From Conexibacter sp. SYSU D00693 (GTDB lineage: Bacteria; Actinomycetota; Thermoleophilia; Solirubrobacterales; Solirubrobacteraceae): DNA of 64,000 nt. A program made the translations under genes and the position numbers. Positions 14,784 through 40,611 of this stretch are shown one piece after another. Location: positions 1,612,001-1,676,000 of the forward strand of contig NZ_CP070950.1 in assembly GCF_017084525.1 (NCBI RefSeq). Reading direction: 5' to 3'. The number at the start of each line of letters is the position of its first letter. Positions within the stretch are counted from its first letter, which is position 1. Under the pieces are notes generated by a model that saw only the letters and a list, made by a program, of their open reading frames with translations, did no database searches and was not told the DNA's origin.

Positions 14784-15140
14784 ATGAGCGCTTCGAGGAC
14801 CCGCGTCGCCGGCGCCTTCATCGGCATGGGGACCCTGCACTTCCTGGTCCCCAAGCCGTTCGTGGCGATCGTGCCGGACTACCTGCCGGCCCACCGGGAG
14901 CTCGTGTACGCCAGCGGCGTCGCCGAGGCGGCCGGCGGCCTGGCGCTGCTGTCGTCCAACCCGACGACGCGCAAGCGCGGCGCGTGGTGGCTCGTCGCCA
15001 CCATCCTCGCCGTCTTCCCGGCCAACATCCACATGGCGCTGCACCCTGAGCGCTTCCCGAGGATCCCCAGGGCCCTGCTCTGGGCGCGGCTGCCGTTCCA
15101 GGCGCTGTTCATCCGCTCGGTCCTGCGCGCCGCCGCGTGA
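14784..15140 (+). CDS. Small DoxX-like membrane protein
   Basis: A 118-residue membrane protein with three to four hydrophobic helices (AGAFIGMGTLHFLVP, EAAGGLALLSS, WWLVATILAVFPANIHMAL), similar to DoxX-like proteins. The ATG at 14784 is close to the divergent ArsC-like gene. Its stop overlaps the GTG of the FkbM methyltransferase, so the two are co-translated. The biochemical role is unknown. Confidence 0.7.
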   Translation: MSASRTRVAGAFIGMGTLHFLVPKPFVAIVPDYLPAHRELVYASGVAEAAGGLALLSSNPTTRKRGAWWLVATILAVFPANIHMALHPERFPRIPRALLWARLPFQALFIRSVLRAAA

Positions 15141-15967
15141 GCGCCTCCCCGGCCGACCGCGCCAAGGCCGCGGCGGCGGAGGCCAAGGCCCGTCTGCGCC
15201 CGGTCGTCAAGGACGTCCTCGCGCGCGCCGGCCTCGAGGTGCGCCGCACGGGCGGCGGGGGTCCGCGGCGCACGCTGCCCGAGGTCCTCGCCCACCTCCA
15301 GCGCCTGGGGCTGCGGCCCGGGGCGGTGGTCGACGTCGGCGTGGCCCGCGGCACGCCCGACCTCTACGCCGCCTTCCCCGGGCTGCCCGTCCTGCTCGTC
15401 GAGCCGCTGGCCGAGCACGAGGGCGACCTCAAGGCGATCTGCGCGGCCCGGCCCGGCTCGGCCTACGCCCTCGCCGCCGCCGGCCCCCAGCCCGGCAAGC
15501 TCGAGATCGCCGTCCACCGCGTGCCCGCCTGCTCCTCGGTCCTGGGCGACCGCGAGCCCGACGGCACGCCCGCGCCGCGCCGCACCGTCCCGGTGGTCCG
15601 CGTCGACGACCTCGTGGCCAACCACGCGCTGCCCGGTCCCTTCGTCGTGAAGGTCGACGTCGAGGGCGCCGAGCTCCAGGTCCTCGAGGGCGCCCGCGAG
15701 ACGCTCGCGCAGACCGACGTGGTGCTGCTCGAGGTCTCCTTCTTCCAGCTCGTCCCCGGCGGCGCCGAGCTCGCCGACGTGGTCGCCTGGATGCGCGCCG
15801 CCGGCTTCTCGCCCTACGACGTCTACCAGGGCCACCTGCGCCCGCTCGACGGCGCGCTGGCGCAGGTCGACATGGCGTTCGTGCGCGACGACGGCCCCTT
15901 CCGGGCCGACCACCGGTACGCGACGCCCGCGCAGGCCGACGCGCTGTACCGGCGCTGGGGCTACTGA
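15137..15967 (+). CDS. FkbM-family SAM-dependent methyltransferase
   Basis: A 276-residue methyltransferase of the FkbM family. Motif I is AVVDVGVARGTPDLYAAFP, followed by LLVEPLAEHEG. The hallmark FVVKVDVEGAELQVLEGA is present, as is LLEVSFFQL. An N-terminal Ala/Lys-rich helix of about 25 residues precedes the domain. FkbM enzymes O-methylate sugars or polyketides. No glycosylation or polyketide cluster is adjacent, so the acceptor is unknown. Start by GTGA overlap with the preceding gene. Confidence 0.85.
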   Translation: MSASPADRAKAAAAEAKARLRPVVKDVLARAGLEVRRTGGGGPRRTLPEVLAHLQRLGLRPGAVVDVGVARGTPDLYAAFPGLPVLLVEPLAEHEGDLKAICAARPGSAYALAAAGPQPGKLEIAVHRVPACSSVLGDREPDGTPAPRRTVPVVRVDDLVANHALPGPFVVKVDVEGAELQVLEGARETLAQTDVVLLEVSFFQLVPGGAELADVVAWMRAAGFSPYDVYQGHLRPLDGALAQVDMAFVRDDGPFRADHRYATPAQADALYRRWGY

Positions 15968-16152
15968 CGCCCACCGGCGGGCGGCGCGGGCGGGAGGTCC
16001 GTGACGTTCGAGGTCCCCACCACCTCGTGCGTCACACACCTCGCTCGATCGCGGGCCTGAGCGCCGCGACCACCTGCCCAGGACGATCCTCGATCTGGTG
16101 TCATCCGCTGACCCAGGACCGGGACCTTCCCGCCCGGCCGTCGTTGGGGTCC

Positions 16153-16617
16153 ATGGAGATGCCCGCCAAGACCACCTCGCCCCGCCGCCTCGGCCTCGTC
16201 GTCGCCGCCGCCGTCCTCGCCGGCGCGCTGAGCGCGCTGCTGCCGGTGGGCGACGCGCACGCCTTCACCGTCGGCACCCAGCAGACGCTCGGTCCCGGCA
16301 GCCGCATGCCGGTCGACTTCCCCGGCCGGTCCTACGACCTGGGCGGCAAGGTGCCGCGTGGGCACGTGATGCTGCGCCGCCGGGTCGAGGTCGCGCGCAG
16401 CGAGGGCCGCCGCGGGCTCTCCTTCCTCTGCCCGGGCGGGACCTACGCGTACAGCCCGTCGCTGGTCGAGGGCGCGTCGATCGGCCTCGACATCCCCGAC
16501 GTCTCGCAGTACCAGAAGAAGCTGCGGCGCTTCCGGCTGCGCGTCTACGCGTCCCCGCTGGCCAAGCGCGACCCCGCGGTGAGCAGCGTCTACCTCCTCT
16601 GCCGCCCGCGCCGCTAG
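16153..16617 (+). CDS. Secreted protein homologous to the sensor domain of the adjacent ECF sigma factor
   Basis: A 154-residue protein with a clear Sec signal peptide (positively charged TSPRR, hydrophobic core LGLVVAAAVLAGALSALL, cleavage near DAHA). Residues 66-152 align with residues 325-410 of the ECF fusion encoded 10 nt downstream. Both share VPxG, LSFxCPxGT, GAxxG, RV and a final LC(x)RP, including two cysteines that could form a disulfide. I recognise no named family. The short gap suggests an operon, so this may be a ligand, decoy or partner of the sigma factor's C-terminal domain. The start is ATG 16153 or 16159. Confidence 0.75.
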   Translation: MEMPAKTTSPRRLGLVVAAAVLAGALSALLPVGDAHAFTVGTQQTLGPGSRMPVDFPGRSYDLGGKVPRGHVMLRRRVEVARSEGRRGLSFLCPGGTYAYSPSLVEGASIGLDIPDVSQYQKKLRRFRLRVYASPLAKRDPAVSSVYLLCRPRR

Positions 16618-16627
16618 CCCGCCGCCG

Positions 16628-18091
16628 ATGGCCGCTCTCGCCCCCGGACTGCCCGTGCCCGCCCGCTTCTCGCGCTCGCAGAGCGACGAGGAGCTCGTGG
16701 CGCGCCTGCGCAAGGGCGACGAGGCGGCGTTCGGCGAGATCCACGACCGCCACCGGGCGGCGCTCGAGCGCTACGCCAAGCGGATCCTCGACGGCCGCGG
16801 CGCCTCGGGTCCGGAGGACGTCGTGCAGGACGTCTTCGTGCGCGCGCATGCGGCGCTGAAGGCCGACGACCGGCCGATGCAGCTGCGCGCCTGGCTGTAC
16901 CGCCTGACGCGCAACCGCTGCCTCGACGAGCTGCGCCGGCCCGCCACCGGTGCGACGGTCCCGATGGACGACGTCCTGGACCCGGTCGCCCTCGAGCACA
17001 GCGACCCCTACGAGGCCACGACGCGGCGCGAGGAGCTGCGCGACGTCGTCACGGACCTCGCCTCGCTGCCCGACCGCCAGCGCGAGGTGCTGCTCTTCCG
17101 CGAGGTCGAGGGGCTCTCGCACGAGGAGGTGGCCGAGCAGCTGGGCATCACCGTCCGCGCCTCGAAGAACCTCGCCAACCGCGCGCGCGAGAACCTCGCC
17201 CGCAGCGCCCGGGCGCGCGACGAGAGCTGCCAGACGATCCGCGACGACCTCGTCTCCGCCCACGAGCGCCGCCGCCGCGCCAGCCCGCACGCGCTGCGCC
17301 ACGTCGCGCGCTGCCGGGACTGCCGCCTGTTCCGCGGCGAGCTCCAGACGCTGCGCTCCGCCATGCGGGTCCTCGACCCGGGCTCGGCGCTCGTCGGCGT
17401 CGCAGCCACGGCGACGGGCTGGTCGGTGCTCGGCCTCGGCGCGGGCGCCGCGACGATGAAGGTCGCCGCCACCGCGGCCGTGACCGTCGCCGCGGGCGCG
17501 GGCGCGTTCGAGCTGGCCTCCTCGTCGTCCTTCGCGGGCGACCGCGCGCCGATGGCGATCCGCTCCGACGTCCTCGCCGGGCCGCTGCAGCGCGGGGAGC
17601 GCGTCCCGGCCGGCACGGCGGTGCTGACCAAGAAGGTCGTGCTGGCGGCCGGGACGACGAGGCACCCGTCGCTCTCGTTCACCTGCCCGGCGGGCACCCG
17701 CGTGGCGGGCATGACGCCGTCGCGCGGCGCGCGCGTGGGCTTCGGCTACGCGCCGAGCACGATCGTCGGCGCCTCGCGCATCGCCCGCGTGGTCTTCGAG
17801 CCCCGGCGGCTGGCGCGCGCCACCGGCGTCGTCGTCGGGACGCTGTGCAAGCGCCCCGACGCGGCAGGCTCGCTGCTCGCCGTCCCGGCGCTCGCGGCGT
17901 CCAAGAAGGTGCGCAAGGTGTGCTCGAGCCGGGCCTACCTCTACGAGACGCCCGGGCGCTTCGTCATCGGCACGGTCTTCCGCTCCCAGCCCGTGACGGT
18001 CCAGCGGCGCGACCGCACGCGGCGCTGGACGCGCATCACGACCGACGCGGGCACCCGCGGCTGGGTCCGGTCCTCGGCGCTGTGCCGGTAG
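16628..18091 (+). CDS. ECF sigma factor fused to zinc anti-sigma motif, membrane segment and sensor domain
   Basis: A 487-residue protein. Sigma-2 lies at about 20-103 (GPEDVVQDVFVRAHAAL, WLYRLTRNRCLDELRR) and sigma-4 at about 137-190 (LPDRQREVLLFREVEGLSHE, HTH VAEQLGITVRASKNLANRA). Then come a ZAS-type zinc motif H225-x3-C229-x2-C232, an Ala/Gly-rich hydrophobic stretch at about 252-297 (one or two membrane helices), a domain at 308-415 homologous to the preceding secreted protein, and an SH3-like end at 430-487. A normal ECF is about 180-200 residues with a separate anti-sigma. Here sigma, inhibitor and sensor appear to be one polypeptide. Release of the sigma part would probably need proteolysis or a conformational change. 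Known C-terminally extended ECF groups exist, but I cannot place this one. Confidence 0.88.
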   Translation: MAALAPGLPVPARFSRSQSDEELVARLRKGDEAAFGEIHDRHRAALERYAKRILDGRGASGPEDVVQDVFVRAHAALKADDRPMQLRAWLYRLTRNRCLDELRRPATGATVPMDDVLDPVALEHSDPYEATTRREELRDVVTDLASLPDRQREVLLFREVEGLSHEEVAEQLGITVRASKNLANRARENLARSARARDESCQTIRDDLVSAHERRRRASPHALRHVARCRDCRLFRGELQTLRSAMRVLDPGSALVGVAATATGWSVLGLGAGAATMKVAATAAVTVAAGAGAFELASSSSFAGDRAPMAIRSDVLAGPLQRGERVPAGTAVLTKKVVLAAGTTRHPSLSFTCPAGTRVAGMTPSRGARVGFGYAPSTIVGASRIARVVFEPRRLARATGVVVGTLCKRPDAAGSLLAVPALAASKKVRKVCSSRAYLYETPGRFVIGTVFRSQPVTVQRRDRTRRWTRITTDAGTRGWVRSSALCR

Positions 18092-39732: not shown

Positions 39733-40611
39733 ATGGACCGCCCGTCGCCCCCTCCGCAGTGGCTGCCGCCCGTGCCGGCCGCCGACCCGCCGGCCCCGGC
39801 TGCTCCGCCGCCCGCGTCGCAGCAGCCCGAGCCGGAGCAGAGCGCGCTCAAGCGCGCGCTCGGCCCGCTCTTCCTCGTCGTCGCCCTGGTGGCGAAGTTC
39901 GGGAAGGTCGCGTTCGTCGCCGTCAAGGGCCTGAAGTTCCTGACGACCTCCGCGACGATGCTCGTCTCGGTCGCCGCCTACGCGCTGATCTGGGGCTGGA
40001 AGTTCGCCGTCGGCTTCGTGCTGCTCCTCCTGGTCCACGAGTACGGCCATGTGCTCCAGCTGCGCCGGGAGGGGATCAAGGCCAGCGCACCGATCTTCAT
40101 CCCGTTCATGGGCGCCCTCATCTGGGCGAAGTCCCTCGGCAAGGACGCGGTGGCGGAGGCGCGCGTCGGCCTCGCCGGCCCGATCCTCGGCTCGCTCGGC
40201 GCCGCGGTCTGCATGGTCATCGGCTTCGCGACCGACGAGGACTTCTGGAAGGCCCTCGCGTTCACGGGCTTCTTCCTGAACCTCTTCAACCTGCTGCCCC
40301 TGGGCTTCCTGGACGGGGCGCGCGCCGCGGCGGCCATGTCCCCGTGGATGTGGCTGGTCGGCGTGTTCGGCGCGGTCGTGCTGACGCTGACGTTCCCGAA
40401 CCCGATCATCGTCCTGCTCACGCTGCTCGGGATCTGGGAGACCTACCGCCGGTTCAAGGACCTGCGCAGCGGCGACCCGCAGATCACGGAGTACTACCGC
40501 GTCTCCCCGCGCAACCGGCTGCTGGTCGCCGCGGTCTACCTCGGGCTCATCGCGCTGCTCGTGCTCGGCATGGACGCGACGCACATCGAGCGCGACTTCG
40601 ACGACGTCTGA
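39733..40611 (+). CDS. Site-2 protease family (M50) intramembrane metalloprotease
   Basis: A 292-residue membrane protein. After a Pro-rich cytosolic N-terminus (about 40 residues) come several helices, including VGFVLLLLVHEYGHVLQL with the HExxH zinc motif (HEYGH) inside the membrane and LFNLLPLGFLDGARAA, the second S2P motif with the metal-ligand Asp. Such proteases cleave membrane-bound anti-sigma factors or other regulators. Whether it acts on either ECF system in this window is open. TACCCT and a GGAGGGGG run precede the ATG. Confidence 0.88.
   Translation: MDRPSPPPQWLPPVPAADPPAPAAPPPASQQPEPEQSALKRALGPLFLVVALVAKFGKVAFVAVKGLKFLTTSATMLVSVAAYALIWGWKFAVGFVLLLLVHEYGHVLQLRREGIKASAPIFIPFMGALIWAKSLGKDAVAEARVGLAGPILGSLGAAVCMVIGFATDEDFWKALAFTGFFLNLFNLLPLGFLDGARAAAAMSPWMWLVGVFGAVVLTLTFPNPIIVLLTLLGIWETYRRFKDLRSGDPQITEYYRVSPRNRLLVAAVYLGLIALLVLGMDATHIERDFDDV

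Follow-up and report, generated by a model that had tools for sequence, protein, structure and literature searches.

How can a sigma factor that carries its own inhibitor and sensor in one chain be switched on and off, and why should a free, secreted relative of that sensor be encoded beside it? Both questions are raised by a pair of genes of Conexibacter sp. SYSU D00693 (NCBI RefSeq assembly GCF_017084525.1, contig NZ_CP070950.1), lying in the 64,000-nucleotide (nt) stretch from 1,612,001 to 1,676,000 of the forward strand that was analysed here, referred to as the window. The genes share one strand and are separated by 10 nt, the first encoding a 154-amino-acid (aa) secreted protein and the second a 487-aa extracytoplasmic function (ECF) sigma fusion (Table 1). 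A preliminary description, made from the sequence alone, had recognized a single-chain sigma/anti-sigma/sensor protein with a secreted paralogue of its sensor; the coordinates and the spacing hold, and so does the kinship of the two sensor domains. We propose that the sigma factor inhibits itself and would be freed by proteolysis, with the secreted copies competing for the target of the sensor, a reading whose chances we put at about even.

The fusion and the secreted relative of its sensor

The likeness between the secreted protein and the fused sensor is detected by direct comparison (BLASTP, E 1e-5). It extends over residues ~49-150 of the former and 304-407 of the latter, somewhat longer than the 66-152 and 325-410 aligned earlier by eye. 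The local score is 79; 2000 shuffles averaged 28.8 (sd 5.1), and none scored as high. We built a profile from the mature regions of ten secreted proteins, that of the window among them, and searched it against the open frames of the collected loci. It retrieved the fused domain of the window protein with E 2.4e-8 and the fused domains of relatives with E values between 2e-10 and 0.004; an unrelated protease frame (L084) reached 9e-4, and the weak end of this range proves nothing alone. The kinship was recovered in the other direction as well, a profile of the fused C-terminus retrieving secreted proteins (G033, E 1.4e-9).

Comparisons across relatives were based on 32 fusions, that is, open frames in the fetched stretches holding sigma together with this sensor, nearly all of them in family f1. 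All 32 were retrieved by the profile of the fused C-terminus, 31 in the scan of the family and one (L078) in that of the class. A sensor-SH3 frame without sigma in frame (L120) and other fused matches without sigma (SH3-only, secreted-only) were left out of this set, and three near-duplicates (L081, L124 and L133, like L082, L123 and L132) were dropped from the trees, the shuffle and cysteine tests and all counts of 29. Every one of these 29 fused domains outscores the best of 5,800 shuffled sequences (12.1 bits or more vs 10.0). The profile search and the shuffle test rule out chance similarity: secreted and fused sensor domains are one family.

When the 29 fused domains and 21 secreted ones are placed in one tree, a single branch (support 99/98) parts the fused from the secreted. 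This separation rules out a recent local duplication and indicates that the secreted/tethered pair is an old one. The two cysteines that the preliminary description had seen in both proteins recur in 13 of the 21 secreted domains and in 28 of the 29 fused ones, the exception (L069) being cut by a stop. The remaining 8 secreted domains have neither cysteine, and none has one alone. Residues that are always kept or lost together suggest a disulfide, and hence a location outside the cell for both domains.

AlphaFold2 folds the secreted domain into a compact beta-sandwich (predicted local distance difference test, pLDDT, 91.5; predicted template-modelling score, pTM, 0.85), from an alignment that held three secreted and four fused domains, so the model is no independent proof of their likeness. 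The model of fused residues 300-487 alone is middling (pLDDT 71.7), and Foldseek returned no match to it at E 0.001, its weak matches being mostly SH3 domains (best E 8e-3). Compared with solved structures, the sensor domain gave weak matches (Foldseek best E 0.18; VIA-align best Z 5.5, root-mean-square deviation 3.7 over 81 residues), and sequence searches with profiles of the two domain families turned up no convincing relative of solved structure. In Pfam, searched up to E 1, the window's secreted protein and its fused sensor piece are both without a match; among ten secreted relatives, two show a weak resemblance to Cadherin_4 (best E 0.003). The signal peptide of the secreted protein, already noticed earlier and read by eye, ends in A-H-A, and the same-genus counterpart (L064) is 41-42% identical.

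The sigma part of the fusion is as previously described, with both sigma regions matched in Pfam, and all 16 A2 members likewise hold PF04542 and PF08281, nine of them also matching SH3_3 (Pfam, E up to 1). The SH3-like end was correctly named: SH3_3 scores 27.0 bits in the whole chain, exactly at the cut-off of 27, and the isolated C-terminal piece gives 30.8 bits. Remaining Pfam matches are overlapping sigma, helix-turn-helix, SH3 or GW models. H225, C229 and C232 of the ZAS motif were also read correctly, and C201 sits at the position expected for the fourth ligand. The form of the motif with a cysteine as first ligand is found in 30 of the 32 fusions; a histidine takes that place in L069, and the motif is absent from L083. 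The zinc-finger model pfam13490, reported for SCO4117, has no match in the window protein up to E 1 and is not among the 25 families listed of the 30 that the 16 A2 members match. The start of the fusion is backed by its same-genus relative, whose protein likewise begins MAALAP.

Table 1. Features of the sigma fusion locus, in positions of the window
Feature	Position	Strand	Basis or remark
Predicted promoter CGGGACC-N13-GTCGTT (readable as GGGAC-N16-CGTT)	16120-16145	+	7 nt before first ATG
Secreted paralogue of the sensor domain, 154 aa	16153-16617	+	BLASTP, profile search, shuffle test
Signal peptide, residues 1-37, ending A-H-A	16153-16263	+	Read by eye from the sequence
Mature beta-sandwich domain, two conserved Cys	16264-16614	+	AlphaFold2 model; Cys pattern
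ECF sigma / ZAS / membrane segment / sensor / SH3 fusion, 487 aa	16628-18091	+	Pfam, ligand motif
Sigma region 2, residues 40-104	16745-16939	+	Pfam PF04542, E 1.9e-12
Sigma region 4 (r4_2), residues 144-190	17057-17197	+	Pfam PF08281, E 5.6e-15
ZAS zinc-ligand motif C201-x23-H225-x3-C229-x2-C232	17228-17323	+	Sequence pattern (predicted ligands)
Probable membrane segment, residues 279-297	17462-17518	+	Hydropathy, marginal in the window protein
Tethered sensor domain, residues 304-415, conserved C353 and C407	17537-17872	+	Profile, Cys pattern, model
Bacterial SH3 (SH3_3) end, residues 435-484	17930-18079	+	Pfam PF08239; weak Foldseek matches

Two relatives depart from this layout. In the fusion L083:898-2346 the whole ZAS stretch is missing but sensor and SH3 are present, and the gene 18 nt upstream encodes a secreted-looking protein for which no kinship was detected; L069:5126-7132 is split by an in-frame TAG within the sensor domain, either a real stop or a sequencing error. 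In the window genome (G000), a search with the ECF fusion gives 25 matches of E 0.01 or lower, several of which (L003, L004, L006) carry long Ala/Pro-rich C-terminal tails with no clear domain.

Secreted copies beside the fusion in related genomes

The distribution of the system was followed with a profile of the fused C-terminus (A3). It matches 21 of 146 genomes of the family (E 1e-6 or better), 20 of 399 genomes of the class, and one of 296 genomes of the phylum, the window's own. Outside family f1, a full-length match occurs only in G375 (family f10), the match in G226 being short and confined to SH3.

Within 4000 nt upstream of the fusions (L081 being cut by a contig end), a secreted copy of the sensor is encoded on the same strand at 13 of 32, a secreted copy of the SH3 end at 18 and both at 3. 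At least one secreted paralogue thus stands upstream of 28 of the 32 fusions, or of 25 of 29 once near-duplicates are removed. The pair seen in the window thus recurs among its relatives, the point on which the preliminary description had wanted a survey. The spacing was measured for 12 sensor-copy pairs: in nine the two genes adjoin directly, with -4 to 16 nt between them; in L073, L074 and L076 other genes, including an SH3 gene, stand between the copy and the fusion. Downstream of the fusion, L073:7559-9208 and L074:7341-9017 encode a secreted-looking protein of 550-559 aa.

Six distinct fusions end after the sensor (L127, L129, L130, L131, L132 and L134), with no split by a stop of the kind found in L069. 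Four of them, L127, L129, L130 and L132, have a separate secreted SH3 protein instead, an indication that, within one assembly, a free SH3 piece may take over the work of a fused one. L129 is a second system of the window genome itself (G000:C1:957624-959071). A further secreted-looking protein of 224-246 aa is encoded before the SH3 copy at L127:2447-3118 and L129:5617-6354, both loci of SH3-less fusions. The SH3 tree (41 rows, 69 columns, 3 label changes), in which the L069 fragment behind the stop is mislabelled as secreted, is too short to date the split between fused and secreted SH3.

A third secreted family, of ~250 aa (profile A8), is encoded in the vicinity of 14 of the 32 fusions; at 12 of them its gene shares the strand and lies upstream, and at L080 and L122 it is on the opposite strand. 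The member at L130 is a weak one (E 2e-5). Solirubrobacter phytolaccae, a culturable relative, possesses a 250-aa gene besides the fusion and an SH3 copy. Neither Pfam nor the solved structures offered the family a convincing match (best structural E 0.27, a chance level), and a LolA/RseB-like identity, which had been suspected, found no support in these searches. In the same-genus relative (L064), the operon runs 250-aa gene, secreted sensor, fusion. The window operon has no 250-aa gene at that position, and the pair is preceded there by an FkbM methyltransferase gene (15137-15964).

Secreted sensor relatives also occur in stretches where no adjacent fusion was fetched (L061, L065, L066, L068, L071, L072, L075 and L077). 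Some of these lie near contig ends, and four of the eight form a clade (98/94).

A predicted promoter shared by genes of the system

The operons of the window and of L064 both open with CCGGGACC and GTCGTT at near-equal spacing just before the first ATG. From these two upstream regions a motif was drawn by eye and then tested genome-wide. In the 4.43-Mb window genome, CGGGACC-N12-15-GTCGTT has four matches and its reversed control none. Three are exact N13 copies, all intergenic and 7, 8 and 8 nt before an ATG: one of these sites heads the window operon (ATG at 16153), another precedes a 270-aa member of the 250-aa family (G000:C1:1849540, profile E 1.5e-45), and the third a 98-aa secreted SH3 protein (G000:C1:4013676, E 2.4e-7). 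The fourth match lies inside a gene. Seven other genomes gave 11 matches, ten intragenic and one, of the N14 form, heading the L064 operon. All four promoter-placed matches in the eight genomes therefore belong to the sigma system, two having defined the motif and two bearing out what it predicted.

The alternative reading of the motif, GGGAC-N16-CGTT, has what we take to be the shape of ECF promoters. With copies before its own operon, a 250-aa gene and an SH3 gene, the sigma factor probably drives its own operon together with secreted relatives of its sensing apparatus. Because the predicted promoter ends just before the ATG, the short distance suggests leaderless transcripts.

Less exact searches added little. 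The ten one-mismatch sites of the window genome comprise nine within genes and one before an ABC (ATP-binding cassette) transporter ATPase gene; of 17 two-mismatch sites looked at, 13 are intragenic and one (L160) stands 55 nt before a secreted-looking 162-aa protein. Open enumeration of motifs in 25 upstream regions found nothing above shuffles (best 6 vs null maxima of 5-8). The pattern CCGGGAC-N14-18-[CA]GT[CT] is present in 6 of these 25 regions, with 0.14 expected; four of the six are one cluster of relatives (L079, L082, L121 and L128) and the other two are the window and its same-genus relative.

A possible feedback switch at the cell envelope

The observed domain make-up, homology, conserved gene pairing and promoter motif copies form the direct basis of the following scheme, for which we infer the membrane topology, the proteolytic release, the use of the motif by this sigma factor, the shared target and the competition. 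The ZAS domain would hold the sigma part of the same chain inactive at the membrane, while an extracytoplasmic beta-sandwich and SH3 end would read the cell envelope. Once the sensor meets its target, stepwise proteolysis would probably free the sigma part, which would then turn on its own operon and the two distant genes. The predicted output would be a free sensor copy, a secreted SH3 protein and a ~250-aa secreted protein. By filling the envelope target of the tethered copy, the secreted copies would switch the system off when supply meets demand, a negative feedback that is the simplest and likeliest use for such copies. Known bacterial SH3 domains point to peptidoglycan, and the SH3 end therefore makes peptidoglycan a candidate target. 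Release by regulated intramembrane proteolysis is possible given that site-2 (M50) proteases are present: three such frames were found in the window genome, and M50 matches also in 14 of 14 control genomes. One of the three frames, of 407 aa, lies in the window itself, with a Peptidase_M50 match (53 bits over two pieces) at 40003-40338.

The preliminary description had guessed that the secreted protein is a ligand, competitor or co-sensor. The choice among these roles is still a matter of inference, although the predicted shared promoter and the four SH3-less fusions with a secreted SH3 narrow it. We tentatively extend the competition scheme to a supply-and-demand circuit, in which the sigma factor would carry a tethered copy of its own product and read the envelope sites that its products have left empty, the core regulon here being its own operon with the detached sensor copy, the secreted SH3 protein and one further secreted partner.

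Several points weigh against the scheme of self-inhibition, release and competition. No upstream secreted paralogue was found at 4 of the 32 fusions (L083, L126, L131 and L134), two of which, L131 and L134, have neither an SH3 end nor a separate SH3; the fetched stretches show no fusion beside 8 of the 21 secreted sensor relatives; and 12 of the 14 rows of the A3 profile came from loci with a secreted sensor copy, so that the sample of fusions leans towards paired ones. The motif is short: N12-15 spacing gives 15 matches in eight genomes, 11 of them intragenic, two of the four pre-gene matches defined the motif, and the 11 matches in the seven other genomes compare with 5 in the reversed control. 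If up to two mismatches are allowed, 181 matches appear in the window genome vs 250 in the reversed control, so that weaker regulon members are undetectable by motif search. Residues 250-300, whose topology had been marked for checking, do contain a hydrophobic stretch at 279-297, but its Kyte-Doolittle mean of 1.56 is marginal, falling slightly short of the customary 1.6. Two hydrophobic stretches, the first of them holding the best hydropathy window, are seen in 12 of the 32 fusions, so that there may be two spans, which would leave the C-terminus inside.

These last values, just below the limit in the window protein and with the stronger stretch first in 12 fusions, are what would be expected if the hydrophobic stretch were no single membrane span and the C-terminal half stayed in the cytoplasm. 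We regard this as very improbable: 29 of the 32 fusions, the window's included, print a hydropathy of at least 1.60, the two cysteines are kept in nearly all fused domains, and A1 homologues start with signal-peptide-like ends. If the sensor does lie outside, the main rival to competition is that the secreted proteins bind the tethered sensor and keep it protease-resistant until stress removes them and proteolysis follows, as RseB does on RseA and CseA for SigE. Replacement of the fused SH3 by a separate one in four distinct loci is what one complex would produce, and the conserved gene order, the close spacing and the third secreted family near 14 of 32 fusions agree with it; the chance-level structural matches of the 250-aa family speak neither for nor against a likeness to RseB. 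We hold such a clamp to be possible, if rather unlikely.

We judge it improbable that the secreted proteins serve simply as envelope effectors controlled by the sigma factor, whose sensor would be a fused copy of their target-binding domain without feedback, as in RsgI sensors with carbohydrate-binding domains. Predicted co-regulation and a single old duplication agree with this explanation, and RsgI sensor domains of several carbohydrate-binding types are described (PMC12203970). The three exact promoter sites, all before genes of the system itself, fit a regulatory loop; this argument is a mild one, since weaker members would be lost in the background.

How does the competition scheme compare with known systems? 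Fusions of sigma, ZAS and membrane parts are a known kind, exemplified by ECF48, ECF52, ECF53 and IutY (PMC8999054, PMC5826349), and the remark in the preliminary description that some ECF groups hold their own inhibitor in a C-terminal extension has its precedents there. The window protein shares the layout, with sigma, zinc-ligand motif and a (marginal) membrane segment. In the actinobacterial groups ECF48 and ECF53 a ZAS-like zinc finger and one or two membrane helices are joined to the sigma factor in a single chain, and IutY of Pseudomonas putida (ECF243) is a sigma factor fused to its membrane anti-sigma, serving iron-starvation cell-surface signalling; for neither does section 16 of PMC8999054 mention detached secreted sensor copies, which are present here. 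IutY is freed by Prc and RseP, and release in ECF48, ECF52 and ECF53 is presumed by analogy (PMC8999054, same section). The ECF52 protein SCO4117 of Streptomyces coelicolor unites sigma, zinc finger, membrane region and extracytoplasmic binding domain in a single chain; according to PMC5826349, positive autoregulation is suggested and proteolytic release is proposed, and SCO4117 expression was activated in a strain with a truncated form (no zinc finger, membrane or binding parts). A proline-rich stretch and a carbohydrate-binding module characterize ECF52, whereas the fusion here has an unnamed beta-sandwich, an SH3 end and separate secreted paralogues; the window protein contains no carbohydrate-binding module (Pfam up to E 1) and no proline-rich stretch in its sequence.

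RsgI of Clostridium thermocellum likewise bears outer sensor domains, of carbohydrate-binding and other types, and is cleaved in the membrane by RseP (PMC12203970). RsgI and SigI are separate proteins and their products carbohydrate enzymes, whereas here all is one chain and the predicted products include bare sensor copies. The same domain types as in the RsgI sensor occur in secreted products. RseB on RseA and CseA in the SigE system offer the other likeness, a secreted protein or lipoprotein acting on an ECF system. Those regulators are not known to be paralogues of the sensor domain, whereas the secreted proteins here are. RseB is mentioned in PMC8103513. Detached secreted copies of the outer domains, conserved in a family and predicted to be co-regulated, appear to be new; searches of the open-licence literature yielded no description of an ECF fusion accompanied by secreted copies of its sensor.

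The choice and quenching of a signal by membrane-fused sigma factors are largely open questions. With sigma, inhibitor and sensor in one chain, soluble relatives of the sensor parts and a predicted promoter, this family offers a small and testable system in which to ask them, and two unnamed families, the beta-sandwich and the ~250-aa protein, gain a likely role in envelope sensing.
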